Below are positions 1,995 to 64,000 of a stretch of DNA of 64,000 bases, one piece after another. Made by a program: the position numbers and the translations under genes. Where the stretch lies: NCBI GenBank assembly GCA_020050685.1, contig JAGVKG010000004.1, positions 1-64,000 of the forward strand, written 5' to 3'. The notes under the pieces were generated by a model. The model did no database searches. It saw only the letters and a list, made by a program, of their open reading frames with translations, and was not told where the DNA came from. The DNA is from Candidatus Obscuribacterales bacterium. GTDB taxonomy: Bacteria > Cyanobacteriota > Vampirovibrionia > Obscuribacterales > Obscuribacteraceae. The stretch's first letter is position 1. Each line of letters starts with the position of its first letter.

Positions 1995-2987
1995 ATGAAT
2001 AAACTACAGAATTCTGGCATACTGTTATTTATCCTGATAAACAATATCACCGTTCAATTGGCACGAGCCGGTGATCTGAATTCTGATGGTGAACAATATT
2101 TCAATGGTGGGAATTTCGCTCGTGCACGGGAATGCTTTAATCAGTGCTTAAAGCAAAATCCTAATGATTGGCAGGCCTTACAAAGTATTGCTAGCTGTGA
2201 CAATAGACTCGGTGAATTTAAAAATGCCATTGAAATTCTTCGAAAATCAATTGAAACGGGTGGCTTACATTCAAGTCAGTGTACGATAATGGCGGGATCC
2301 TTGGAGGAGCTTGGTCAACCCAAACAAGCGCTTTCTTGGTTGAAATTGGCTTGCGCCATTGATCCAACTCAAGCAACCAATCCAGGAATGCAGGCTGCGA
2401 TCAACCGCCTGGAGTCTCCAGAAATAAATCCACTTGGTTCACCGAAAGACAAAAATTATCTGTACTCCCTACAGAACGCTAAGAAATGGCGAGCAAAATC
2501 GTTTCCTCTGAAAGTGTATGTACGGCAAAATATTCAAATTCCAGGCTTTTTTGACTCGTTCAAAAAAATTATAAAAGAATCAATGGATCAGTGGTGCCAA
2601 GCCACTGGTGGTGTTGTTTCTTATAAGCTTGTTGATTCTTACCAAAATGCAGATATTATTTGGGATTACACAGACAGACGTGAACTATGTACGTCCGAAC
2701 ATGATCCGGGTGTTGATGGAGCAGCGGAAATGCTTTTCCGCGCAACAGATAACACTATCGGTACCGCCAAAATAGTTGTCTTGGTCAAAGACAGCCCACT
2801 TAGAAATTCTTTCAGAGACTCGCGAATAATACTCACGTCTTGCTTGCATGAGATGGGGCATGCTTTGGGAATAGATGGACACTCCAACAACACAACCGAC
2901 GTTATGTTCTTGGCGGCAACGCCTTATCCAATTACCAGGCTGAGCCAGCGAGATAAGAATACCATTCGGCTTATGTATCCCCGATAA
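1995..2987 (+). CDS. TPR and matrixin-like zinc metallopeptidase, secreted
   Basis: This is a signal-peptide protein with two parts. Residues of about 25-130 form TPR-like helices (for example ARECFNQCLKQNPNDWQAL). The C-terminal half carries a metzincin zinc site, HEMGHALGIDGHS, with histidines at about residues 285, 289 and 296, followed by DVMF as the Met-turn. The third histidine lies one residue later than in classical matrixins, a spacing I recall from bacterial TPR-linked matrixin-like enzymes. The ATG at 1995 is preferred over an in-frame TTG at 1983 because it places the hydrophobic leader at the extreme N-terminus. Expected role: extracytoplasmic proteolysis; substrate unknown. Confidence 0.8.
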   Translation: MNKLQNSGILLFILINNITVQLARAGDLNSDGEQYFNGGNFARARECFNQCLKQNPNDWQALQSIASCDNRLGEFKNAIEILRKSIETGGLHSSQCTIMAGSLEELGQPKQALSWLKLACAIDPTQATNPGMQAAINRLESPEINPLGSPKDKNYLYSLQNAKKWRAKSFPLKVYVRQNIQIPGFFDSFKKIIKESMDQWCQATGGVVSYKLVDSYQNADIIWDYTDRRELCTSEHDPGVDGAAEMLFRATDNTIGTAKIVVLVKDSPLRNSFRDSRIILTSCLHEMGHALGIDGHSNNTTDVMFLAATPYPITRLSQRDKNTIRLMYPR

Positions 2988-3029
2988 ACATTATCGAAAA
3001 TGATTGAAAGGAGCCCTCGATGACGCGCC

Positions 3030-4208
3030 TTAAACGAAAAAGTGGATTAAGTATGCAGCCAAAATGCCGAGCGCAACAAACATGAAATACAAAGCCACAG
3101 CTAGTTTCTTGGATACCTCTGTCCATAAATAGCTCATTGGCAGGAAGCTATAGGTTCCTAGCGTAAAAAGAAATAGCATGACATATGGTGCTGGAACGTG
3201 ATGCGTGTAGAGCTGCTGGGCAGTCATCACGTCAAGCGCTATCGGTATGGGCAGAAGCACGGTAATAAGAGCAGTGCCTGCAAGAACGAGAGGGTTTGTC
3301 TCAGCAAATATGCTCTTCAATGGCAGCACTTCCATCGCCAAGGAACTCAAGATGGCAGCAAGCAACATAAACGGGACAGCTGTTTTGATTAGCTTCCACA
3401 AGTTCTTCAAGTATTCTAGACCGACATGTTTGGCAGAATCCAAAAGACTTTCCTGGCATTCCTTGTAAAGCGGAATCGAGCACGCTACTGCTGCTTGCTC
3501 AGGTAAGCCATCTTCCACTCTGGCTTTGCGGTTGCTGAGGTAGACGATAAGCGGCACAAATACCAGCAAAACCAAGGTTATGAGGGAGTATTGAATCGCA
3601 CCGTAATACCAAGGTAATCCGGCAAAGACCATCGATACAACAATAAAATTCAAGGTCGGAGAACTGAACATAAAGCCTAAAGCTGCTTCCACGTTGGCCT
3701 TACCACGAGTGATGCCGCAAGCGACTGGAACAGCGCAATTCACACAGACGCCAGCCGGTGCGCCCATTACTATTCCTTTCAGAGTGTTCGTGTAAATGTT
3801 TCCACCCAGTTTCGGCGGGTAGAACTCAAACAGTGTATGGAGTAGCGCTCCTAGCGTTATTCCGAACGACATACCAATGCGCATGGACCAGATCCAGTTA
3901 ACGAATGATACCCACCAGCGCTCAATAAAACCTGCCCGAATAGATGCTCTGATTAGCTCCGAATTGTAGATATAGGAAACAAGTTCATGATGACCCATAT
4001 CTTCAGCCTTATGAAATAGCTGAGGGTAGCGCGAACCGAACCAGAAACTGCCTAAGATCATTACGGCCATCATGAGTATTACAAAGAGAGGATAATAACA
4101 TCGGATATCTTTACCGGCGATGAGGATTGGCCGCGCAAACGGTAGTGACGACTTTATTGAAAAAGCGAGTGCCATAAACTTATTCTCCAGCCTTTGCCAA
4201 AGGTCCAT
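3030..4208 (-). CDS. Polytopic permease of the DUF318/ArsP-like family
   Basis: The protein of about 392 residues has many hydrophobic helices. The middle contains the family hallmark GAPAGVCVNCAVPVACGI followed by SSPTLNFIVVS, matching predicted permeases (Pfam ArsP_1/DUF318) that export oxyanions or organic metalloids. Here the cysteine pair is CVNC. The central cytoplasmic loop, about 60 residues and charged, contains two more cysteines (AVACSIPLYKECQ). The ATG at 4208 follows GAGTG; an in-frame GTG at 4214 is possible. A perfect 8-bp hairpin lies about 45 bp upstream. The transported substrate cannot be read from sequence. Confidence 0.75.
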   Translation of the reverse strand: MDLWQRLENKFMALAFSIKSSLPFARPILIAGKDIRCYYPLFVILMMAVMILGSFWFGSRYPQLFHKAEDMGHHELVSYIYNSELIRASIRAGFIERWWVSFVNWIWSMRIGMSFGITLGALLHTLFEFYPPKLGGNIYTNTLKGIVMGAPAGVCVNCAVPVACGITRGKANVEAALGFMFSSPTLNFIVVSMVFAGLPWYYGAIQYSLITLVLLVFVPLIVYLSNRKARVEDGLPEQAAVACSIPLYKECQESLLDSAKHVGLEYLKNLWKLIKTAVPFMLLAAILSSLAMEVLPLKSIFAETNPLVLAGTALITVLLPIPIALDVMTAQQLYTHHVPAPYVMLFLFTLGTYSFLPMSYLWTEVSKKLAVALYFMFVALGILAAYLIHFFV

Positions 4209-49827: not shown

Positions 49828-52596
49828 TCAGTGTACAGTGGAAAGGCTGCCGTTATGTGTGCCCGAGATGTTTTTCTTGGCTGGAAGACTGAGAACTCTG
49901 TATTTGCCAGGCAACTTAGAATATTGTTCGAGAATGGACTTGCGGATCAAATTGTAGTGTTCAATTTCTACGGTATGTGATGCAACCTTCCGCTCGTTGC
50001 TCAGGTGGGCAAATGATTGCTTAAACCACGTTTGGGCAAGTGCGCCATTGTTTCTGCGGAGGCATAATTCTGCAACGTCGGCGGAAAGTTTTGCTAGTGC
50101 AAGTTGCCTTGATGCGTAGATTCGTTCTTTGCTTAGTGTAGAAGTGCGAGGTAGCGGCCAGCATGTTCCGACAAGGCACGGCTCCTCGAAGGATGGAAAA
50201 ACAGGAGCGCATACTGTGGGTTCGACTCTCTCTGAACCGTCGGTTGCTTTGTATGGTATAGGATCTCTTGCCCCGATCAGTCGAGAAGTCACTGTTCCGG
50301 CCGTATTTACTCCTTGAATAATTGTGGTGTCACCACCCTGAGGTCCAATTGTCCCGTTGGTTGATTGCATTAGTATCAGGGTGTCATCCTCCGGTACTTG
50401 AACATAGGCTCGTTCATAAATACCACTCGAATTGTTATCATACGAAATCGCGTCTGGCCTTGAAACAGAAGCAATTAGGTCTTTGGTTGTCTGTTCAGCT
50501 TTATCTTGCCTTCCAGTATTGGCATAGATAGAAGCCAACTCGTAAAGGTCAGCGAATGTATCTTGACCTAACCAATACGATTGTCTAAATTTGTCTGGCA
50601 CTGTAGGCTTTAGAATCGCTTCTGCTTCTTTGTATCGCTTGGCTGTTAGATACAATTGTGTGAGCTTTCTTGAGACCATCCTTTCTTGCCATTCAGTGTG
50701 ACAGTTGTTCCAAAATTCATTATAGAGATCGATTGCGCGCTCGGGATGTCCTAATTTGATCTCGAGATCTGCGAGTCTATCTATATCATTTGCGGCTTCG
50801 TAAAATTCAGAAGTAGTCGAGGCAAAAGACTTAACCTTGGTCGGTTGTTTCTCTATCAAGGAAGTATCGGGAGGGCTAAATCCGAAGGGATCAGTTTTCT
50901 TTGATGTGTCTAGAACATCAAAAGCAATTTGATCAGTTGATTTGTCGACCACACTTGGAGTGGATGAATCCGATAGCTTTGGGAAATACTTCAGCACAAG
51001 CATTGAGTAATAAGATTCTGCTTGTGAAAGTTGATTTTGATCTTCGTATGATGCGCCTAACAAGCGAAGTGTCTTCTGCACTTCTTTGTCGCTTGCTTTA
51101 ATAGTATTCAACCGCACAAGGCGCAAATTCAATAACTCTATGGCCTTAGTGTAGTTTTTCTGTGAAAGGTAATGCGATGCAAGATCTTCCAGATCATTGG
51201 CAAACAATAGTCTGTCATCGCCTTTGAAGTCTCGTTCAACTGCTTCTGCTAGCATTACTTCTGCTTCGTTCGGCCTATTTTCCAGTGAGTACACATCTGT
51301 GAGATTTTGTCTTACTGTGCGTGCAATAGGATCGTGTAATTTGACCCTTATGGCAAGCGCCCGCTTAAGCAAATCTTCTGCCTGCGAATATTCTTTGTGC
51401 CTTACATAAAATGAAGCGACATGACTCAAGCAGTTAGCCATGTCAGGGTCATCTATTTCCTTTCCGTTTTCATATCTTGCCATCAATTTCTTGTAGGTGT
51501 CTTCCGCTTCTTTGAGTTTTCCTTGCTTAACTAGGACAGCTTCCAGATCATGTAAGGTTTCTAGCGTTTTGGGATTTAAGGCCCCGATGGTTTGTATTTG
51601 TAATGAGAGAAGTTCTCGATTAGCAGTCTCAGCAGTTGAAAAACTATTTTGCGCCATGGCAAATGAAAGGTACGATTGTAAAAGATGGCCAACCAGTTCG
51701 TTATTGGGCCCGTACGCATTTCTTGCGGCGGAAATTGCATTCTTGTATAAGTTGTTTGCACGATCACGAGCTCCATGGTTGGCATAAATTTTGGCAGTAG
51801 TTGCTAAATCGGAAGTCAATTCAGCCATAAAGAAATCAAGATTTGGAAGTTCTGGTGGTAACCATGCCGATTTGGAGCCGGGTGTATTTATCCTGACGAA
51901 AATTGCTTTTTCAAAACAGTCCGCTGCTTGCAAATATCTATGCTGCATGTAATAACAATCACCGAGCCAATTAAAATCGGTGGCTCTGTTACTTTTCTCT
52001 TCAAATAAATTTCCGCCATCCATTGTTGTAAGCTTGGAAAAGATTTTTGTAGCAAGCGGGTATTTGCGCTTGCCGTAGTAACGCATGCCAATTTCTCTTA
52101 GCTCAGCAAGTGTGCCAGTAACTCTCTTGCCATTTTCAATAACGTTGTAGGCAAAATTGAACTGGATAGCAACGGACTCTGGTGCGCCGTTTGGCAGAGG
52201 GCGAAATGGTGCTGATTGTCGCACTGCTCTCAGTGCGGCTTGTCCTGCTGCGGGATTTGGGAGGACAGTATCCGCCGAAGGCGCCAAACGCAGTTGTGAG
52301 ATGTGACCGTCCGCATGTATATCAAACAGTACCTGAATGTTGCGTGACAGTTCATCCTTGGGTGCATTCCAGACCTTTTTAATGCGCTTCTGGATATCAG
52401 CCATATAAGGACCAAAGTCGACTTCCGCTTTTGCCGGCTTGCTATTTGATTTGGCTTCCTCTGGCTTATTGGGATGAAAGCCGTATGCTGGAAGCCCAGG
52501 CTGCTCGCCCTCGGCTTGCGCTCGTCCGGGAGCCTGCGTGCTAAGCAAGCTCAATAATATGAATGTTGAGGCTAACCAGGCATGCTGTTGGCGCAT
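49828..52596 (-). CDS. Large TonB-C/TPR protein carrying the NTAGT motif
   Basis: The longest frame starts at 52695. The ATG at 52596 gives a protein of about 922 residues with a signal peptide ending near PGRAQA. A TonB C-terminal-like domain (KVWNAPKDELSRNIQVLFDIHADG) sits near the start of the mature protein. About 15 TPR-like helices follow. Residues 784-802 of the longest frame read GPQGGDTTIIQGVNTAGTV, the motif that begins the mature form of two small membrane proteins encoded divergently 5 kb away. The C-terminal 100 residues return to TPR helices. Third gene of a minus-strand set. Role inferred: periplasmic scaffold that may recruit or mimic those small proteins. Confidence 0.75.
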   Translation of the reverse strand: MRQQHAWLASTFILLSLLSTQAPGRAQAEGEQPGLPAYGFHPNKPEEAKSNSKPAKAEVDFGPYMADIQKRIKKVWNAPKDELSRNIQVLFDIHADGHISQLRLAPSADTVLPNPAAGQAALRAVRQSAPFRPLPNGAPESVAIQFNFAYNVIENGKRVTGTLAELREIGMRYYGKRKYPLATKIFSKLTTMDGGNLFEEKSNRATDFNWLGDCYYMQHRYLQAADCFEKAIFVRINTPGSKSAWLPPELPNLDFFMAELTSDLATTAKIYANHGARDRANNLYKNAISAARNAYGPNNELVGHLLQSYLSFAMAQNSFSTAETANRELLSLQIQTIGALNPKTLETLHDLEAVLVKQGKLKEAEDTYKKLMARYENGKEIDDPDMANCLSHVASFYVRHKEYSQAEDLLKRALAIRVKLHDPIARTVRQNLTDVYSLENRPNEAEVMLAEAVERDFKGDDRLLFANDLEDLASHYLSQKNYTKAIELLNLRLVRLNTIKASDKEVQKTLRLLGASYEDQNQLSQAESYYSMLVLKYFPKLSDSSTPSVVDKSTDQIAFDVLDTSKKTDPFGFSPPDTSLIEKQPTKVKSFASTTSEFYEAANDIDRLADLEIKLGHPERAIDLYNEFWNNCHTEWQERMVSRKLTQLYLTAKRYKEAEAILKPTVPDKFRQSYWLGQDTFADLYELASIYANTGRQDKAEQTTKDLIASVSRPDAISYDNNSSGIYERAYVQVPEDDTLILMQSTNGTIGPQGGDTTIIQGVNTAGTVTSRLIGARDPIPYKATDGSERVEPTVCAPVFPSFEEPCLVGTCWPLPRTSTLSKERIYASRQLALAKLSADVAELCLRRNNGALAQTWFKQSFAHLSNERKVASHTVEIEHYNLIRKSILEQYSKLPGKYRVLSLPAKKNISGTHNGSLSTVH

Positions 52597-52710
52597 AGTG
52601 CGGCAAGTACCAAACAAATTAGTTTTGATCTCTTTAGTAATATGTGCGGAAAAAGTGCGTAAGCCCATTCTGCTCGGATCACTTGAGCTTGTCAAGTAAA
52701 ATGTAAACGT

Positions 52711-54630: not shown

Positions 54631-54791
54631 TTGGGCTACGGTCCTTTTGACCGTGTACTCGTCCGATTTACTACGTCCGACAAATCAACCGGCAAATTAG
54701 TGTGAAAACGCGTGCTTTGGCACATGTTTTTTCGGTGGCTTGCCATTCAAAACATTTTGGACCGATCCGTTTGGTTCAAGTAGGAGATACT

Positions 54792-55190
54792 ATGGCTTCT
54801 AATTGGCAGAAGTTATTTTTCGTTGGCCTTGGCGCTATTAATTCAGCATTTTGTTTGCCTGCATTTGCGCAAAATCCGGCTGGACCAATTGGTCCGCAGG
54901 GTTTGGATACAAATGTAATCGAAGGTATTAACACCGCCGGTACTGTGCGTGTAAACATGTTGGCTAACTTTGAGTCGTTGGTAAACATTACTGCAAACGG
55001 TGCTGAGGTAATTGGAATCATTTGGGCAAGTATTTTGTTGGTTTCGGTCTACCGTTGCATGACGAAGAATGCACGTCAGGATAAGAAAAGACTTGCGTTT
55101 GGTATTTCAATTTTTGCGTTGGCGCTGGCAATTCCAGGATTGGTCAACTGGCTTCTGGCCTCCGCTCGCGATGCGAATCTGTTTTCTTAG
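54792..55190 (+). CDS. Secreted two-helix membrane protein, paralogue A (pilin-like topology)
   Basis: TAGGAGATACT fixes the ATG at 54792. The 132-residue precursor has a signal peptide cleaved after FA at residue 26, leaving Q27 first. The mature N-terminus GPIGPQGLDTNVIEGINTAGTV (residues 31-52, motif core QGLDTNVIEGINTAGTV) is the shared motif. Two helices, about 69-90 (GAEVIGIIWASILLV) and 102-124 (AFGISIFALALAIPGLVNW), are joined by a basic loop. The tail is ARDANLFS. Signal peptide, glutamine start and helix-loop-helix resemble VirB2/TrbC pilins, but no homology is proven. Confidence 0.7.
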   Translation: MASNWQKLFFVGLGAINSAFCLPAFAQNPAGPIGPQGLDTNVIEGINTAGTVRVNMLANFESLVNITANGAEVIGIIWASILLVSVYRCMTKNARQDKKRLAFGISIFALALAIPGLVNWLLASARDANLFS

Positions 55191-55202
55191 GGGGAGTATT
55201 CA

Positions 55203-55595
55203 ATGATTATTCAACGAAAGAGATTTTCTTTGGCTGGTGTTTGTGCGCTATGTGCAATTATTTCATTGGGTGTTCCCGCACTTGCTCAATACACAGGAAC
55301 CCAAGGAGTTGATATGACTGTAATTCAAGGTGTCAACACCGCAGGAACAATACGCGTAAATAATCTTGGCTGTCTGGAAGCATTGATCAATATTATTGCT
55401 AATGGCACACAGGTGGTCGGCATCATTTGGGCCTCCGTTATTCTGGTTACCGTGAGGCGGTGCATGAAGAATAGTTCGCGAAAGGCGAAAGTTCGATTAG
55501 TAATTGGTTTAGTAGTACTTGCAATTGCATTGAGTACGCCGGCGATGTTCAATTGGCTTGTCGCCAGTGCGCGCGATGCGAATTTGTTTAGTTAG
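55203..55595 (+). CDS. Secreted two-helix membrane protein, paralogue B
   Basis: The 130-residue protein is a clear paralogue of the preceding one: signal peptide with cleavage after LA at residue 28, mature start QYTGTQGVDMTVIQGVNTAG, TM1 QVVGIIWASVILVTV, a basic loop RRCMKNSSRKAK, TM2 VIGLVVLAIALSTPAMFNW and the identical tail SARDANLFS. GGGGAG upstream is the ribosome site; the gene follows paralogue A after 12 bp. Confidence 0.7.
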   Translation: MIIQRKRFSLAGVCALCAIISLGVPALAQYTGTQGVDMTVIQGVNTAGTIRVNNLGCLEALINIIANGTQVVGIIWASVILVTVRRCMKNSSRKAKVRLVIGLVVLAIALSTPAMFNWLVASARDANLFS

Positions 55596-56972: not shown

Positions 56973-58747
56973 ACCGAAGCTACCGGTCGTTCAAATTGTG
57001 CACGGATTAGGCGTGCGTAAGTAGCGTCTTTTTCGATGAGCGCATCATGCGTACCGGATTCGACAATTGAGCCGTGTTCCAAAACAAGAATTTGATCTGC
57101 GTGGCGCACTGTGGAAAGCCTGTGAGCAATGACGATAACCGTACGCCCTTCCATCAAGCGATTGAGAGCCTTCTGCACCATTGCTTCCGATTCGTTATCG
57201 AGTGAGCTGGTTGCTTCATCCAAGATCAATATCGGTGCGTCTTTGAGGAAGGCGCGGGCGATGGACAAGCGTTGCTGCTGTCCACCGGATAGTCTCACGC
57301 CGCGTTCACCAATTTCTGAGCCGTACCCGCCTGGCAATTCTTCGATAAAGTCGTGACAGTAGGCTGCCTTAGCTGCTTGTTCAATTTCTTCGTGAGTGGC
57401 ATCAAGACGGCCCAAGCGAATGTTTTCTTCCACAGTGGCGTTGAACAAAAAGTTGTCTTGGCTGACGACGGCAATTTGCGAGCGCAGGGAACTCATCGTG
57501 TAATTCGATAGTGGCTTGCCATCAATAAAGATTGTTCCCGCTGTGGTATCAAAAAAGCGCGGCACTAAATTAGCAAGAGTCGATTTGCCGGATCCGGATA
57601 AACCAACTAATGCCACCATGCGTCCGGCTGGTATCTCGAGATTGATATCACGCAAGACCATATCCGGTGTTGATGGATATTGGAAATAAACGTGTTTGAA
57701 TTCAACATTGTGCGAACCTTGTGGCAATGGTTCTGCATCGATGGAGTCTTTTAAATCTGGATCAATATCGAGCACTTCAAACACTCTGGTGGAAGCAGCA
57801 AGGGCTGGTTGAATAATTCCTTGAATGCGACCGAGATTTTTGAGTGGTGAGTATAAAAGTATCAGAGCAAGCAAAAACGATGTAAGTGATCCAAGATTCA
57901 TTTGATGATGCACAACCTGATAGCCAGCAACCCACATGACGCAGGCGATACCAAGGGCACCAATCATGCCCAAAATGGGCGACATCATAGCCTCTGACCG
58001 CACGGCCTTCATCACATTGGCAAACACACTTTGATTGGTGGCAAAAAAGCGGTTAGTCTGAAATGTTTCCAAATTAAAGGACTGAATCACCTTGGCACCT
58101 TGAATTGATTCGGAGAGCACGGAAGTAAGATCGCCGACTGCTTCCTGTCCGCCACGGCTTGCCTTGCGAATTTTCTTGGAAAGAATTGTCACTGGAATGA
58201 CGATAAAGGACATGATGGAAAGAGCAATTATGCTCAGCTGCCAGCTTTGCATTAGGACAACAATAATCAGTGATACCAAAGTGACAATGCGCGAAAGCAT
58301 TGTTTGGAATGTTTGGGCGATGGCATTTTCAATCACGTTTACATCGTTGATCATCCGACCGATTAAGATGCCGGAAGAATTACCTTGGAAATAAAGCAAT
58401 GGTTGCTTCTGCAAATGTTGAAATATTTCATTGCGTAGATCGCGAATCGCCGCAGCACCAACATAGCGAATACAAATTGCTTCAACGAAACGAGCCGAGC
58501 CTTGGATCGCCATAGCGAGCAAAACCAGAAGTGGTGCTATATAAATTAGTTCTTGGTGTCCCTGAACAAAAATCCGCTGCAATCCTTGCCCGGCCAACCA
58601 AGCGATAACACCGTCCATGCCACCAGCCGGAATGGCTGCAGCAAGTCCGATTACAAATCGCACCCAGTAAGGACGAATATATTTCAGCACCCTCATGTAG
58701 AGGAGAAATTGTTCTGTGAACGTATTTTGTAGCTGCCTTACGCGCAT
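56969..58747 (-). CDS. msbA: MsbA-like ABC exporter (lipid A flippase type)
   Basis: The 592-residue half-transporter has six membrane helices in the first 320 residues, followed by an ATPase domain with Walker A GLSGSGKST, signature LSGGQQQR, Walker B ILILDEATSSLD and the HRLST switch. Position right after lpxB on the same strand supports the role of flipping lipid A core across the inner membrane. Other multidrug-type substrates remain possible. Confidence 0.88.
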   Translation of the reverse strand: MRVRQLQNTFTEQFLLYMRVLKYIRPYWVRFVIGLAAAIPAGGMDGVIAWLAGQGLQRIFVQGHQELIYIAPLLVLLAMAIQGSARFVEAICIRYVGAAAIRDLRNEIFQHLQKQPLLYFQGNSSGILIGRMINDVNVIENAIAQTFQTMLSRIVTLVSLIIVVLMQSWQLSIIALSIMSFIVIPVTILSKKIRKASRGGQEAVGDLTSVLSESIQGAKVIQSFNLETFQTNRFFATNQSVFANVMKAVRSEAMMSPILGMIGALGIACVMWVAGYQVVHHQMNLGSLTSFLLALILLYSPLKNLGRIQGIIQPALAASTRVFEVLDIDPDLKDSIDAEPLPQGSHNVEFKHVYFQYPSTPDMVLRDINLEIPAGRMVALVGLSGSGKSTLANLVPRFFDTTAGTIFIDGKPLSNYTMSSLRSQIAVVSQDNFLFNATVEENIRLGRLDATHEEIEQAAKAAYCHDFIEELPGGYGSEIGERGVRLSGGQQQRLSIARAFLKDAPILILDEATSSLDNESEAMVQKALNRLMEGRTVIVIAHRLSTVRHADQILVLEHGSIVESGTHDALIEKDATYARLIRAQFERPVASV

Positions 58748-58755
58748 AACTTCCT

Positions 58756-60006
58756 CTACGTGGATGCCTTGGTTACAGGGGAATAATCTAACTTCTGCGA
58801 AACTTTCTCATTTCCTTTGGCAGTAATTCCCAAGGTTGCCAATATTTGCTTGCTCACATTGGAGACAAACTCGCCTCTGCCCAATTGCGCCTTTACGGAT
58901 TGCAAACGTTTTGTGGTTTGCTCACGAAATGCAGGCACATCCAACCAATCGCAGGTATATCTTACAAACTGCTCGGCACGGCAATCTAGTTGAAATAACT
59001 CAGGAACCACACCTTCGCCTGCCAAGATGTTGGGCCAGCCTACGCGTTTGATTTGTTTAAAAAAGAAAATTAAGATGGCGGAAATCCAGTTGCTTCGGTA
59101 AAAGATCAGCATCGGTGTGCCGAGCATGGCTGCTTCCAATGTTGTGGAGCCGGATTTAGCCCAAGCGAGATCGCAATTTGTCATCAAATTGTAATTTTCG
59201 CCGGGACTGATCAATTTCAGCCGGTCACCGACCAGATGACGATAACCAAGCTTGTCCACCAATTTCTCAATTAGATCATCCAGCGTGGCATTTGCTTTTG
59301 ATATGACGCATTGCACTTCTGGTCTTTCCTGTAAAACCCAAGCCACCGCCTGTAGTACCACAGGAATATGGTCGCGAATTTCTTGTTTGCGGCTGCCAGG
59401 AAAAATGCCAATAATTGGACGATTAGGATCAAGCCCGTGTTTGGCGGCAAAGGCCTCGCGCGTTTCCAAATCAGTTGCTTTTGGCAAGTTGGTTGTATAG
59501 GGGTTGCCGACGAAATATGATTCAATACCTTGATCGCGATAAATCTTTTCCTCAAACGGAAAAATTACTAGCATTTTGTTGATAGTGGCTTTCAAGGCAT
59601 TAATGCGCCATGGGCGAGAGGCCCAAACTTGCGGCGAAATAAAATAGATGATTGGCAATTGCTCTTTGCTGTAATGTTTGCGAATTGTTTGCGCTAAGTG
59701 AATGTTGAAGCCGCCAAAGTCCACAAGCAAAATGGCTTGCGGGCGGCGTTTGGCGATTTCTGCCAAAATGTGCTTTTTGATTTTTTGCAAAAGTGGCAGA
59801 ACTCGAATTACTTCGACAATCCCAAATGTGGAAAATGTTTGTAGGTTGTAGAGAATTTCTGCGCCGGCTGCTTCCATTTCCGAGCCGCCCACGCCCCAAA
59901 CAGAAAGATCTGGTGCGTCTTCTTTTAGTTTGCTGAGTACCTTCGACACATGTTTGTCGGCGGACAAATCGCCAACAAAGACAAACAAGTTCCGCTCGCC
60001 ACTCAC
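58756..60006 (-). CDS. lpxB: Lipid-A-disaccharide synthase
   Basis: It joins UDP-diacylglucosamine to lipid X in lipid A synthesis. Matching blocks are VGDLSADKHVSKVL, FVGNPY-type region ESYFVGNPYTTNLP, GIFPGSRKQEIRDH (donor-binding loop) and AWAKSGSTTLEAAMLGTPMLIFYR, partly quoted. The 416-residue length is slightly long. It overlaps ubiE by four bases and is followed by the msbA-like gene. Its presence implies an outer membrane with lipid A. Confidence 0.92.
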   Translation of the reverse strand: MSGERNLFVFVGDLSADKHVSKVLSKLKEDAPDLSVWGVGGSEMEAAGAEILYNLQTFSTFGIVEVIRVLPLLQKIKKHILAEIAKRRPQAILLVDFGGFNIHLAQTIRKHYSKEQLPIIYFISPQVWASRPWRINALKATINKMLVIFPFEEKIYRDQGIESYFVGNPYTTNLPKATDLETREAFAAKHGLDPNRPIIGIFPGSRKQEIRDHIPVVLQAVAWVLQERPEVQCVISKANATLDDLIEKLVDKLGYRHLVGDRLKLISPGENYNLMTNCDLAWAKSGSTTLEAAMLGTPMLIFYRSNWISAILIFFFKQIKRVGWPNILAGEGVVPELFQLDCRAEQFVRYTCDWLDVPAFREQTTKRLQSVKAQLGRGEFVSNVSKQILATLGITAKGNEKVSQKLDYSPVTKAST

Positions 60007-60749
60007 CTGCGAGTCCCCACGTGCAGGGCAACCGAATCGAAAGCCAAAGGAATGTGCTGGACATTCGTCAATCCAGCCTGTTCAAACATTTTCGTAATTG
60101 CGTTCGGCTTGGGATAAGTGTTTCGTGACTCTGGCAAATAAGTATAAGCCTGGCGATCGTTTTGCAAAACTTCGCCAATTATTGGTACTACGTGACCGAA
60201 AAACAAACCAAACATCGGCGCAAAAATTGGATTGGTTGGATGACCAAGATCAAGATTTACGACTCTGCCGCCTGGTTTCACTACTCGTGCCATCTCGTTC
60301 AATCCGGCTTGCAGATCGGTAAGATTGCGCAAACCAAAACTGATGATTGCACCATCAAAACTTTCAGCGGCAAATGGTAACTTTTGTGCGTCGCCTTGTT
60401 GAAATTCAATTTTGGCCGAATTGCCATTTTGTGATTGTGAGCTTTGCAAATTCTTGGCTCGGCTGCGAGCCACATCAAGCATGTTGGCCGAAAAATCCAA
60501 ACCAGTCACACTGCCTTGTGCGCTCAGATATTTTGCAACGGTAAGGGCAAGATCCCCGGTGCCACAACAAACATCCAAATAATTGCCGGTGGGAGATTGG
60601 ACAAGTTCTTTTACCGCGCGCTTTTTCCACGAGCGGTGCATGTAAAGACTAATTACGTCGTTTGTCAGATCGTAACGTTTAGCAATGCGTTCAAACTGAT
60701 CGTGGACGTATGAAAATTTCTCTTCTGCGTTTGGCAGTCGAAAAGACAT
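60003..60749 (-). CDS. ubiE: Demethylmenaquinone/ubiquinone methyltransferase
   Basis: The 248-residue SAM-dependent methyltransferase contains RIAKRYDLTNDVISLYMHRSWK, motif I LDVCCGTGDLAL, GLDFSANML, and FGLRNL, all UbiE hallmarks. It methylates the quinone ring in the final step of menaquinone synthesis. The ATG shares its A with the secG stop (TGATG). Confidence 0.95.
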   Translation of the reverse strand: MSFRLPNAEEKFSYVHDQFERIAKRYDLTNDVISLYMHRSWKKRAVKELVQSPTGNYLDVCCGTGDLALTVAKYLSAQGSVTGLDFSANMLDVARSRAKNLQSSQSQNGNSAKIEFQQGDAQKLPFAAESFDGAIISFGLRNLTDLQAGLNEMARVVKPGGRVVNLDLGHPTNPIFAPMFGLFFGHVVPIIGEVLQNDRQAYTYLPESRNTYPKPNAITKMFEQAGLTNVQHIPLAFDSVALHVGTRR

Positions 60750-60985
60750 CAGGGTCTAATGATTCCAAAACCGAGCAAAGCGCAAACGACCACAAAGAGC
60801 AACGCCACTGTTCCTGTGACGCGATCGAGTCCAGCTTCAGCACCACTTTTGCCTTGAAACAAAACCGCTTGTCCGCCTATTCCACCCATACCCTCTCCCT
60901 TAGGAGCGTGGAGGAGAATCAAAATTACCAGCATGAGCCCGAGAACAACTTCGGCGCCAAGCAAAACCATATAAGCTACGTGCAT
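60749..60985 (-). CDS. secG: Protein-export membrane protein SecG
   Basis: The 78-residue protein has two helices joined by the conserved cytoplasmic segment LLHAPKGEGMGGIGGQAVLFQGKSGAE (shortened), a SecG signature. GAGGAATAAGC precedes the ATG at 60985. It is a component of the SecYEG translocon and the first gene of the operon. Confidence 0.93.
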   Translation of the reverse strand: MHVAYMVLLGAEVVLGLMLVILILLHAPKGEGMGGIGGQAVLFQGKSGAEAGLDRVTGTVALLFVVVCALLGFGIIRP

Positions 60986-61119
60986 GCTTATTCCTCTCAG
61001 AAAATGCAAAGAAAAATTATAACTGATTTGCCTCAAGATCAGGGTTTATCTGGTTTTCTCACCTGGTGAAGAATGAAATAATCTTATTTGGTTGCTTGAA
61101 TTGCTTACTAGATGTATGA

Positions 61120-61206
61120 TGTTCATGAACAGTGAACACGCATAGCTGGTTTGGGCTTTTAATGCTGGAATTGATTGCTTTTGATATAATGTTCATTGTT
61201 CATGAA
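61120..61206. promoter_or_regulatory. Palindromic operators and extended -10 of the HTH/NTase pair
   Basis: TGTTCATGAACA at 61120-61131 is a perfect 12-bp palindrome, followed by AGTGAAC. A second cluster at 61191-61206 contains two GTTCAT words and TTCATGAA. Between them lies an extended -10 box, TGATATAAT (TATAAT at 61185-61190). The downstream HTH protein is the likely binder, which would make the pair autoregulated. Confidence 0.65.
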
Positions 61207-61224
61207 ATATGAAAAGGGTGGACT

Positions 61225-61749
61225 ATGCAGTTGAAACCACAAGATATCGTTGTGCTTCTGAAATTGGTCGGTCTTAAAGGCGGCTGGTCATATCGTCAAC
61301 TGGCGCAGGAGCTGTTTATGAGCATCGGCGAGGTCCATAATGCTTTAAATCGCGCTGCCCGGGCACAGTTATTTGATACCAGCGAGAATCGCCCGAGAAT
61401 ACAAGCTCTGGAAGAGTTTCTTATTCATGGTCTTAAATATGCATTTCCTGCTGAGAGGGGTTCTATTACCAGAGGTACCCCGACTGCTTTTGCCGCTTCA
61501 CCGCTAAATCAGATTATTTCATCACCGGATGATGTGAATATGCCAGTTTGGCCCGATCCAGATGGATCTGCCAGAGGTTATAAATTAGAACCTCTGTTTA
61601 GCTCCGTGCCAAAGGCAGTAAAAAAGGACAAGGCTTTATATGAGTTGCTCGCACTTGTTGATGCAATTCGAGATGGACGTGCTCGCGAACGCAATCTTGC
61701 CGTTGAACATTTACGAGACCGCTTGAGGGAAAGTTATGCGTCGGCATAG
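61225..61749 (+). CDS. Winged-helix/HTH regulator paired with nucleotidyltransferase
   Basis: The 174-residue protein begins with a winged-helix-like HTH (residues 7-60: GGWSYRQLAQELFMSIGEVHNALNRA). The middle is a linker, and the C-terminal 60 residues are helical and acidic-basic. AAAAGGGTGG gives the ribosome site. It overlaps the nucleotidyltransferase gene by 14 bp. By position it is the antitoxin-like regulator of the pair. Confidence 0.75.
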   Translation: MQLKPQDIVVLLKLVGLKGGWSYRQLAQELFMSIGEVHNALNRAARAQLFDTSENRPRIQALEEFLIHGLKYAFPAERGSITRGTPTAFAASPLNQIISSPDDVNMPVWPDPDGSARGYKLEPLFSSVPKAVKKDKALYELLALVDAIRDGRARERNLAVEHLRDRLRESYASA

Positions 61750-62506
61750 TGTACACGTAGAAGGAATTTCCCTGGTAGCTCAACAGCTGGCAAAGCTCGA
61801 GACTGAAGTCGTTTTCACGGGCGGAGCGATTGTCGGTCTCTTACTGACAGATAGTGCTGCACCAGATGTTAGACCGACAGATGACGTTGATGTGATCGTT
61901 GGCATTGCTCGATACTCAGACTATGCGCTTCTGCAAGAGGAGCTTCGCAAGCTTGGTTTTAAACATGATATGGACGGTCCAAACTGCAGATTCAATCTCA
62001 ACGGCTTGAAAGTTGATGTGATGCCGAGCGACGGTAAGGCGCTTGGCATCACCAATCGTTGGTATGAGTATGCTATCAGTTCGGCAAACGATTATTTGCT
62101 ACCAGATGGTACTTCGATTCGCCTAATATCCGCCCCAGCATTTATCGCTACGAAACTTGAAGCCTTTGATGATCGCGGTGAAGGAGACTATGTTGTAAGT
62201 CATGACGTGGAAGATATAATCGCCGTCATTAATGGACGCACCGAATTACTTGGTGAGATCAAGGCAGCAGATACAGCCATTAGTGCCTATATTAGCGCAA
62301 GGTTTGCAATGTTACTCAAGGACCGGAAATTTCTGGATGCCGTTGGTATGCACCTTTTCCCAGATGCTGATAGCCAAGGACGCGCGAGAATAATTATCGA
62401 TCGAATGCGAGGAATTTCACAAATTGGTCAAAGAATTGAAATCCCGGAGGATTTTAATCGGATGGGGCAAGCTGAGATTGAACGACTGTTTGACGGTGAG
62501 GGATAA
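61736..62506 (+). CDS. Nucleotidyltransferase-fold protein (AbiEii-like), putative toxin
   Basis: The 256-residue protein has the NTase pattern TGGAIVGLLL...RPTDDVDVIV with G29-G30 and D50/D52 and later RFNLNGLKVDVMPSD, similar to the AbiEii/AbiGii family. Enzymes of this type transfer nucleotides to tRNA or proteins. With the upstream HTH gene it forms a toxin-antitoxin or abortive-infection-like module. No classical AbiEi partner is seen; the regulator is different. Confidence 0.75.
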   Translation: MRRHSVHVEGISLVAQQLAKLETEVVFTGGAIVGLLLTDSAAPDVRPTDDVDVIVGIARYSDYALLQEELRKLGFKHDMDGPNCRFNLNGLKVDVMPSDGKALGITNRWYEYAISSANDYLLPDGTSIRLISAPAFIATKLEAFDDRGEGDYVVSHDVEDIIAVINGRTELLGEIKAADTAISAYISARFAMLLKDRKFLDAVGMHLFPDADSQGRARIIIDRMRGISQIGQRIEIPEDFNRMGQAEIERLFDGEG

Positions 62507-62716
62507 TTCCAGCCGTAAAATTTTCAATTAACTAAGTGTTGAAATATTTTGTTAATTGCCGGGTACAAAGTTTATGGGTCGAGGAATGTTCACGGAGTGG
62601 CGCTTTGGGAACCTTTTTCGATACCATGCAAGAAGGAAGGCAATTGGTTAATTGATGGCGTACGAAATGAGTCGCGTTCTGCGGCTTGAGGGCTAGGCGA
62701 GCCCGGCGGGTAGATA

Positions 62717-63700
62717 ATGTCAATGATGGAAAGCGTAATAAGGCTTACCGATCGCTTCTACGACCCACGCGATCCGGATACTATTGAGCGCCAAAGTAAG
62801 CTACAGCAATGCATTCTAATTGTTCTAATTTGTTACGTGATTGCGGGCATTGCGTTTTATAAGATGAAAGAGTGGGAAGTGGCTCATCCGCGCATCATTC
62901 ATGATGTCGATGTCACTTTCGAATTTACGCCGCCACCACCTGAACCACCGCCGATGGCCCAAGAAATGGGCAGAGGTCCAGGATTATCAGCCGGTGGATT
63001 GCCGGGTTCTGCTCCGGCACCAGCGCCAGCCGAAACTGCCAAGGTGGCTATGCCAACGCCGCAAGCACCAACTATAACCAAGCCGACTCCCGTGCCGGTC
63101 AAACCAATTCCCTCGCGTAAGACAACAGTGGCAGCACCAATTGCTGTCACGCCAACCAATGTAATTAAGGCCCCAATTGTTGTGCCGAAGCCTACGAAGG
63201 CGCCGACACAACAGAATCCGCAAACAGGAACTCCTGTTGCTGCCAATCCTTCAGGAGCACCAAACGCAGCCGGTGCTCCAGGTGGTGTTGATGGTGGCGC
63301 AGGCACAGGTGGTGCTGGTGGTGGTGGCACTGGAACCGGACAAGGAGGTCTAGGTGCTGGCACCGGTGGTGGTGGCGCGCCGCAAATTGCCATGTCCTTA
63401 GGAACAAACAGGGCAATGGGCAATATTGCTCCTTATCGCAAAGATTTATTGATGCGGCTGGCCCAAAATTGGAAACCCAAAAACCCCAACGAAAATATTA
63501 TTGTTTTGATCGATCTGGCAACGGACGGCAGTCTTATTTCTGCCGAGATATTTCAATCATCCGGCAACAAGAAATCTGATAAGGCAGCGTTGGCGGCAAT
63601 TGAAGAAACTAAGTTTGCTCCCTTGCCGGATTGGTATAAAGGCAAGCATTTGCCTTTCAAAATCGAACTTAGTAAAGTGGAGGCACTGCACCAGCAATGA
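62717..63700 (+). CDS. TonB-like energy-transducing protein
   Basis: A single membrane helix (about residues 31-49) follows a cytoplasmic N-terminus. Residues 70-190 are proline-rich, 190-225 glycine-rich, and 240-325 form a TonB C-terminal domain (MRLAQNWKPKNPNENIIVLIDLATDG ... FAPLPDWYKG). This is the standard layout for passing proton-motive energy to outer-membrane receptors or TonB-like scaffolding. 327 residues. Its stop overlaps the next ATG. Confidence 0.82.
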   Translation: MSMMESVIRLTDRFYDPRDPDTIERQSKLQQCILIVLICYVIAGIAFYKMKEWEVAHPRIIHDVDVTFEFTPPPPEPPPMAQEMGRGPGLSAGGLPGSAPAPAPAETAKVAMPTPQAPTITKPTPVPVKPIPSRKTTVAAPIAVTPTNVIKAPIVVPKPTKAPTQQNPQTGTPVAANPSGAPNAAGAPGGVDGGAGTGGAGGGGTGTGQGGLGAGTGGGGAPQIAMSLGTNRAMGNIAPYRKDLLMRLAQNWKPKNPNENIIVLIDLATDGSLISAEIFQSSGNKKSDKAALAAIEETKFAPLPDWYKGKHLPFKIELSKVEALHQQ

Positions 63701-64000
63701 GCCAGGTACTCACAGATGTACAAGAAAAGGAACCATCAGCCATTCAAAGGATGGGAGATTCCATAGGCGGATTTTTCAACTCCTTGGGATTGCGCTTGGT
63801 TGTGATATTTGTTGCCGGTGCAATGCTCTCGGCTTTAGCCGCCGATGTGGTTTACCCGCATGTTAGCACCGGTTTTGCCAATCAGTTAGTGGTTAAGCTT
63901 GGTGAAGATGCGGATAAGAAAATGCCGGCTGGTTCGCAAATCCTTGAGATGCTCAACCAATACGATTTGTCTTGGTATTACATTACTGGTGCCGACAACA
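63697..64000 (+). CDS. Membrane protein of unknown function, cut by window end
   Basis: The ATG overlaps the TonB-like stop (ATGA). The visible 101 residues have one helix (about 31-49: GLRLVVIFVAGAMLSALAA) and a large periplasmic portion starting DVVYPHVSTGFANQ. The gene continues past 64000. Position next to a TonB-like gene suggests a partner, but ExbB similarity is not evident. Confidence 0.6.
   Translation, partial: MSQVLTDVQEKEPSAIQRMGDSIGGFFNSLGLRLVVIFVAGAMLSALAADVVYPHVSTGFANQLVVKLGEDADKKMPAGSQILEMLNQYDLSWYYITGADN

Follow-up and report, generated by a model that had tools for sequence, protein, structure and literature searches.

Organization of the gene pair and its surroundings

The window, i.e., the whole stretch of 64,000 nucleotides (64 kb) of Candidatus Obscuribacterales DNA analyzed here, carries two overlapping genes on the + strand: an HTH gene (61225-61749), encoding a winged-helix protein of 174 aa, and an NTase gene (61736-62506), encoding a nucleotidyltransferase of 256 aa. 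Both come from the list of open reading frames (ORFs), overlap by 14 bp, and match profiles of PADLOC, namely PDC-M21A (E 1.1e-49) and PDC-M21B (E 3.9e-67), respectively. Upstream on the same strand, an extended -10 element, TGATATAAT, was read by eye at 61182-61190, and 1 nt past this box begins the putative main operator O1 (TTCATTGTTCATGAAATATGAA, 61192-61213), whose four half-sites were recognized through an exact layout match and through homologues; therefore, the expected transcription start would fall within O1. A partial operator, O2 (TATGATGTTCATGAACAGTGAA, 61115-61136, + strand), which agrees with the consensus at 10 of 12 positions and shows direct repeats, lies 77 bp upstream of O1, within a duplicated stretch of promoter and operator (34 nt, 74% identity, spacing 70), and a -10-like hexamer, TATGAT, occupies 61115-61120, 5' of the central TTCATGAA of O2. 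For the box at 61182-61190 no -35 element was evident by eye, a sigma-70 scan found no promoter with a -35 element, and TGATATAAT was absent from the output of a simple promoter consensus scan. TGTTCATGAACA covers 61120-61131, and the GTTCAT word starts at 61121, 61191, and 61198; the first-pass annotation, which had described a palindrome, GTTCAT words, an extended -10 box, and the overlap of the two genes, was right in its coordinates and words.

On one side of the pair lies a secG-like gene (60749-61036) in divergent orientation and on the other a TonB-like gene (62717-63700), the latter being the next long + strand ORF past 62506 (both names derive from sequence reading), and no tRNA was found in 58000-64000. 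The order of ubiE, secG, and the TonB-like gene recurs among their homologues in a relative (G026), where secG and the TonB-like gene are ~225 bp apart as compared with ~1.7 kb in the window; the pair is absent from this interval, and genome profile searches of G026 returned neither an HTH nor an NTase match. Consequently, the pair is either a gain in the window's lineage or a loss in G026. Elsewhere in the window, a long repeat-type protein (49828-52695) and two small membrane-like proteins (54702-55595) were seen by eye to have the motif GPQG(x)DT(x)I(x)G(I/V)NTAGTV in common.

A catalogued defense candidate and its distribution

The pair is already catalogued as PDC-M21, a phage defense candidate of PADLOC-DB 2.0.0, under a label without assigned function, and the window matches M21A and then M21B in the same order; PDC names trace back to a 'guilt-by-embedding' screen (PMC12988326). 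The third gene of PDC-M21, M21C, whose profiles match PP2C phosphatases, is absent beside the window pair, and one PP2C query and a four-sequence profile detected no PP2C in the 1.5 kb 3' of it. A PP2C gene lies 3' of the NTase gene in 11 of 24 opened plasmid loci, which were hand-picked from 115 records, some of them for an annotated PP2C; nine of these 11 loci match PDC-M21C, and the other two (L059 and L239) were recognized via similarity, the four-sequence profile, or annotation. One Legionella plasmid has a metallophosphoesterase in place of PP2C. PP2C was found in only 2 of 63 NTase loci that derive from genomes and have >=800 bp of downstream sequence, and thus the two-gene form prevails there.

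The distribution of the family is patchy. Of the genomes searched, 16 of 53 in the order and 28 of 386 in the phylum sample have the HTH protein; among 72,556 plasmid records, 115 have the NTase, and 46 of these 115 are typed as conjugative. The nearest named relatives (73-75% identity) are MAGs titled Cyanobacteria bacterium SZAS LIN-3 and Candidatus Obscuribacterales.

The NTase as a remote AbiEii relative with a MenT-like predicted fold

The window NTase matched no Pfam or NCBIfam family above the cut-off, PF08843 included, and reached E 0.016 with the PADLOC AbiEii profile. Among 16 NTase homologues, PF08843 matched six at E<=0.01 (best 2.9e-6); it also scored above the cut-off in two of six plasmid homologues, none of the six having an NCBIfam match, and 6 of the 20 plasmid homologues among the matches listed are annotated 'nucleotidyl transferase AbiEii/AbiGii toxin family protein'. 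The idea of an NTase wholly outside AbiEii was ruled out by these PF08843 matches in part of the family; judged by its profiles, the NTase appears to be a remote AbiEii relative, on a divergent branch of the AbiEii/MenT group. When the sequences of solved structures were searched, one weak chain each was returned for the HTH protein and the NTase.

Structural comparison placed the NTase more closely. For its AlphaFold model (pLDDT 90.1), the best solved fold match is MenT1 (Z 15.4, rmsd 2.9, 170 aligned), and further matches are MenT1 phosphorylated at T39 (Z 13.6), the fungal NTase-like protein 5uvd (Z 12.5), MenT3/TglT (Z 10.9), and, at a level of ~10, antibiotic adenylyltransferases (ANT(2'')-Ia, Z 10.2; LnuA, Z 10.1). 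The model would therefore have its NTase fold in common with MenT1 and MenT3 of M. tuberculosis. The motif residues of the window NTase are R46-x-T48-x-D50-x-D52, K140, and R147, so that the [ST]-x-D-x-D motif and the conserved Lys of MenAT are both present, and T48, D50, D52, and K140 occur in all 87 of the 87 aligned NTases; by spacing, T39 and D41 of MenT1 correspond to T48-x-D50-x-D52 as a Thr/Ser-x-Asp motif. Additionally, the structure of an AbiEi antitoxin, 6y8q, aligns with the NTase model (Z 8.2), which is in line with the likeness between AbiEi and adenylyltransferases described in PMC7319586.

One-sided decay of the pair

The fate of the two genes was followed with profiles of both proteins in four sets: the 53 genomes of the order, the 386 of the phylum sample, and two samples drawn from the phyla to which L023 (titled Hydrogenophaga; 299 genomes) and L010 (titled Acidobacteria; 247 genomes) belong. 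Further input came from 26 loci of an HTH-only scan and from 17 genomes that were searched with the NTase; NTase matches of <=35 bits and the plasmid loci L058-L061 were left aside. Of the resulting 117 merged sites, 67 have both genes intact, 22 have an intact HTH gene with the NTase gene broken (12, including L035/L057, whose 'broken' NTase is merely short at its C end) or absent (10), a single one (L161/L181) has an intact NTase gene with a broken HTH gene whose two parts share one open frame, and the remaining 27 show double damage, lone fragments, or cuts at contig ends; intactness here means an open frame over most of the profile, irrespective of the start codon, and many copies lie in draft assemblies. 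Since the HTH-only scan favors HTH orphans, the count was repeated without the five sites that it had contributed (L007, L013, L015, L017, and L020), which gave 17 to 1. Among the NTase matches of <=35 bits there are four long open frames (G100, G116, G126, and G380; E 3e-6 to 5e-5), and the phylum-sample profile search found no HTH match in those genomes.

Sequencing errors would be expected in both genes alike. The one-sided decay fits what a toxin and its antitoxin predict, namely that an antitoxin is kept without its toxin and rarely the reverse, and an HTH protein with a use of its own could likewise leave an intact HTH gene next to a broken NTase gene. A different view is that of a self-regulated operon whose NTase is harmless to the host and modifies a metabolite, a phage product, or an antibiotic, for which the fold matches to 5uvd, ANT(2'')-Ia, and LnuA can be cited; nevertheless, the match to MenT1 is higher, a ratio of 22 to 1 is unexpected for a harmless enzyme beside its repressor, and the NTase is present on plasmids (115 records), all of which makes this view unlikely.

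Several single loci deserve mention in their own right. At L161/L181 (G455), the HTH homologue carries an in-frame extra of ~25-30 residues after approximately residue 54. At L076 and L109 (G054), ~1.5 kb of DNA splits the NTase gene, and the HTH gene is intact. On contig C11 of G051, two HTH copies (L037 and L045) lie 5 kb apart, one of them without an NTase; this copy is followed by an ORF that looks recombinase-like by eye and is preceded by TTCATGAA-type and TTCGC-type repeats.

The HTH protein and its comparison with known antitoxins

No Pfam or NCBIfam family matched the HTH protein of the window above the cut-off, and 22 members of its family gave weak, mixed HTH matches only. An AbiEi match was found neither for the window protein at E<=1 with Pfam, NCBIfam, and PADLOC profiles nor for any of the 22 members at E<=0.01, and a profile comparison with an AbiEi gave E 0.44; as a positive control, the same libraries recognized at L031 a genuine AbiEi (E 9.7e-42) and AbiEii (E 6.2e-37). 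On these grounds AbiEi membership was rejected by profile, and the antitoxin family appears to have no sequence relation to AbiEi. L031 (G022) also has an orphan intact HTH copy (1453-1956), ~150 bp upstream of its standard AbiEi/AbiEii pair (2106-3450).

The AlphaFold model of the HTH protein (pLDDT 93.7) was matched over residues 1-75 by MarR-type and other winged helices among solved structures (best Z 8.5), a predicted fold that is a common arrangement, and Foldseek returned nothing at E<=0.001. The fold matches listed do not include AbiEi 6y8q, and these lists are filled by the winged-helix half (residues 1-75), so that the C-terminal half was barely probed. The candidate antitoxin, with its 174 aa, winged helix, and no AbiEi match, is also set apart by description from MenA antitoxins, of which MenA1 has 68 aa and MenA3 and MenA4 belong to COG5340 and are AbiEi-like (PMC10435456, PMC11375011).

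In AbiE, the antitoxin comes first and the NTase second, the antitoxin has an N-terminal winged helix, and promoter repeats are read by the antitoxin (PMC7319586). The window pair resembles AbiE in its antitoxin-first bicistronic order, in the inverted repeats at its promoter (their binding being predicted), and in its winged helix, and the NTase of AbiE is distantly related to the window NTase family, as the PF08843 matches in 6 of 16 homologues indicate. It differs in that the HTH protein is not AbiEi by profile and in the build of the operator, since AbiEi binds two 23-bp repeats 3 bp apart (PMC7319586), whereas the window offers four half-sites in one 22-bp palindrome. One could think of a diverged AbiEi/AbiEii type IV toxin-antitoxin system with the HTH protein as an unrecognized AbiEi: gene order and autoregulation through promoter inverted repeats would be common to both, the plasmid homologues annotated as AbiEii/AbiGii toxins would be explained, and, because the PF08843 matches (up to the two of six plasmid homologues above the cut-off) bring the NTase half nearer to AbiE, we raised our estimate of this reading slightly. 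However, the HTH protein (at E<=1) and the 22 family members (at E<=0.01) lack any AbiEi match, the profile comparison gives E 0.44, and a true AbiEi is easily recognized by the same libraries, and so we regard a diverged AbiE as quite improbable.

The first-pass annotation had taken the two genes for an NTase toxin-antitoxin pair, which the MenT-like model and the predominance of NTase loss both fit, and had stated that the HTH protein is not of the usual AbiEi type, a view borne out by the profile searches; by its profiles the pair is not a standard AbiE system. Its further suggestion of a distinct class of such pairs stands for the antitoxin, which sets the pair apart, and not for the NTase half, a remote AbiEii relative.

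Conservation and specificity of the operator

The layout TTCn4TTCn2GAAn4GAA was first read from 36 homologue upstream regions. At least 10 of its 12 positions were found in 29 of 31 discovery regions (0.26 expected from dinucleotide shuffles) and in 53 of 61 upstream regions outside the derivation set (0.46 expected from 100 dinucleotide shuffles each), with 33 of the 61 reaching 12/12, although these test regions are mutually non-independent and many are close relatives. The operators proposed for the window are thus present in homologues from several phyla, with a fixed 7-bp step. Furthermore, a letter-blind self-repetition scan singled out this 7-bp step among steps 5-11 and placed 52 of 92 regions at the top score (0.1 expected), the 92 loci being the 94 unique HTH domains minus L008 and L035, which have <40 bp upstream. 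At L058, TCCTCAGTCCTAGGACAAAGGA keeps the layout with other letters though failing the TTC pattern, as do some other regions, and L017, L065, L078, and L208 stand out in neither the TTC-pattern nor the letter-blind test. A -10 box abutting the operator holds in the window and in L002-L004; as a family-wide rule it was rejected, being found in 14 of 82 loci (17%) versus 12% at random positions in the same regions.

Within the window, O1 follows TTC-4-TTC-2-GAA-4-GAA with zero mismatches and is the sole exact match; the loose 22-mer with <=2 mismatches occurs 10 times against 4.81 expected, and the 10-mer GTTCATGAAC with <=1 mismatch twice in 64 kb against 2.77 expected, i.e., not beyond chance. 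Throughout the 4.2-Mb assembly, TTCn4TTCATGAAn4GAA has one exact copy, O1 itself, and one more with a single mismatch, and sites with <=2 mismatches number 28 versus 22 for the reversed pattern; therefore, a wide regulon is not indicated, and, as the window's site occurs just once in perfect form in the genome, dedicated autoregulation of the pair is likely. That the operators might be coincidental promoter palindromes, the HTH protein regulating other genes, would agree with the chance frequency of the 10-mer alone but hardly with a layout kept upstream of homologues across phyla, with half-site letters that covary with the recognition helix (see below), or with the single exact copy in the assembly, and can be set aside as very improbable indeed.

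Covariation between recognition helix and half-sites

In the AlphaFold model, the recognition helix of the HTH protein comprises residues 34-46. We compared its residues with the fourth base of the half-site (TTCX, majority of the four half-sites) and found E36 with G in 39 of 44 loci, Q36 with T in 12 of 12, R36 with C in 8 of 10, and G35 with A in 6 of 6. Taken together as one rule (G35->A, E36->G, Q36->T, R36->C), these pairings hold for 65 of 72 applicable loci and leave seven exceptions; 10 of the 92 loci, scoring <10/12, had been left out of the code count, and the rule does not apply to a further 10 of the resulting 82, which have V, T, or I at position 36. When each cluster is represented by a single locus, agreement is 40/45 at 70% identity, 25/29 at 60%, and 7/7 at 50%, and it was equalled by 0, 0, and 43 of 20,000 label shuffles, respectively. 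Among 170 aligned window residues, E36 and N39 show the top mutual-information excess; a relatedness-matched column test ranks F125 first, E36 second, and N39 third, and because F125 outranks E36 there, shared ancestry may account for some of the covariation. Outside the rule-finding set, nine of ten plasmid or viral loci agree, all ten having E36, so that one branch of the rule was tested.

A separate class has K34, which goes with TCC half-sites in 11 of 13 loci and in 0 of 101 others, a link noticed and counted on the same loci. Where K34 is present, the base found with E36 is not G but T, A, or a mixture, i.e., the residue-36 rule fails in this class. L269, with an annotated HTH gene that lacks the helix, was omitted from both the K34 and the plasmid/viral counts. 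Read on the opposite strand, the pairings become Arg-G, Gln-A, Glu-C, and Lys-G, which are contacts familiar from protein-DNA structures. The sequence comparison thus provides strong indirect evidence that the HTH protein itself would read the predicted half-sites.

A proposed toxin-antitoxin module and its control

We consider it probable that the locus encodes an autorepressed MenT-like toxin-antitoxin module with an antitoxin family distinct from AbiEi, a reading that draws, at the level of sequence, on the gene pair, the operators, the covariation, the one-sided decay, and the MenT-like predicted fold. In such a bicistronic module, the HTH gene would supply the antitoxin and the NTase gene a MenT-like toxin, which would block translation by adding nucleotides to the 3' ends of tRNA, a toxicity and a target that we infer from MenT. 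Through its N-terminal winged helix, the antitoxin would bind the complete operator and the partial one at the promoter of the pair and would repress its own operon; the half-sites would be read by residues 34-36, where the recognition helix begins. The antitoxin may also trigger phosphorylation of Thr48 and thereby silence the toxin, in the manner of MenT1 and MenT3, and the module as a whole may have an anti-phage role.

The enzyme PstP is a PP2C phosphatase. PstP could dephosphorylate MenT3 in vitro (PMC11541572), and MenA1 induces phosphorylation of MenT1 at T39, which inactivates MenT1 (PMC11375011). These observations, together with the presence of T48 in every aligned NTase, led to the proposal that M21C re-activates a phosphorylated toxin; T48 conservation alone is no proof of phosphorylation, because T39A lowered MenT1 activity (PMC11375011). 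In its widest form, the proposal would be a new toxin-antitoxin class in which the winged-helix antitoxin represses through the four-half-site operator, with letters set by residues 34-36, and silences the NTase via Thr48 phosphorylation, and in which PP2C (M21C) in the three-gene versions, or the metallophosphoesterase in one plasmid, removes the phosphate and frees the toxin when a phage, or the loss of a plasmid, is sensed, the window holding an ancestral or reduced two-gene form. We offer this extended scheme tentatively and think it rather doubtful in its entirety.

In our searches of open-access papers, we found no description of the PDC-M21 family and none joining AbiEii or NTase toxin-antitoxin or anti-phage systems with PP2C; nor were the operator layout, the code, the one-sided decay, or the phosphatase-gating proposal found in print there. 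The uncharacterized defense candidate PDC-M21 hereby gains a concrete and testable mechanism, and its natural variants amount to a code by which a winged-helix repressor would read its operator, testable through swaps of single residues. For the MenT field, the PP2C partner in many plasmid relatives makes it testable how phosphorylated, silenced NTase toxins switch back on.

Lastly, some settings of the pair in mobile elements are worth recording. On a Mitsuaria plasmid a restriction subunit S gene stands on one side of it and a DEAD/DEAH helicase gene on the other, and a DNA methyltransferase gene comes before; the pair hence seems to sit inside an apparent type I restriction operon. The HTH protein had no match in annotated phages, and two contigs of IMG/VR match the HTH profile, one of them with an open NTase frame behind it and, nearby, an ORF judged terminase-like by eye. 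The phage-like IMG/VR contig L260 carries, in 886-2807, a metallophosphatase gene followed by an open HTH-NTase pair; an ORF beyond these appears terminase-like by eye.
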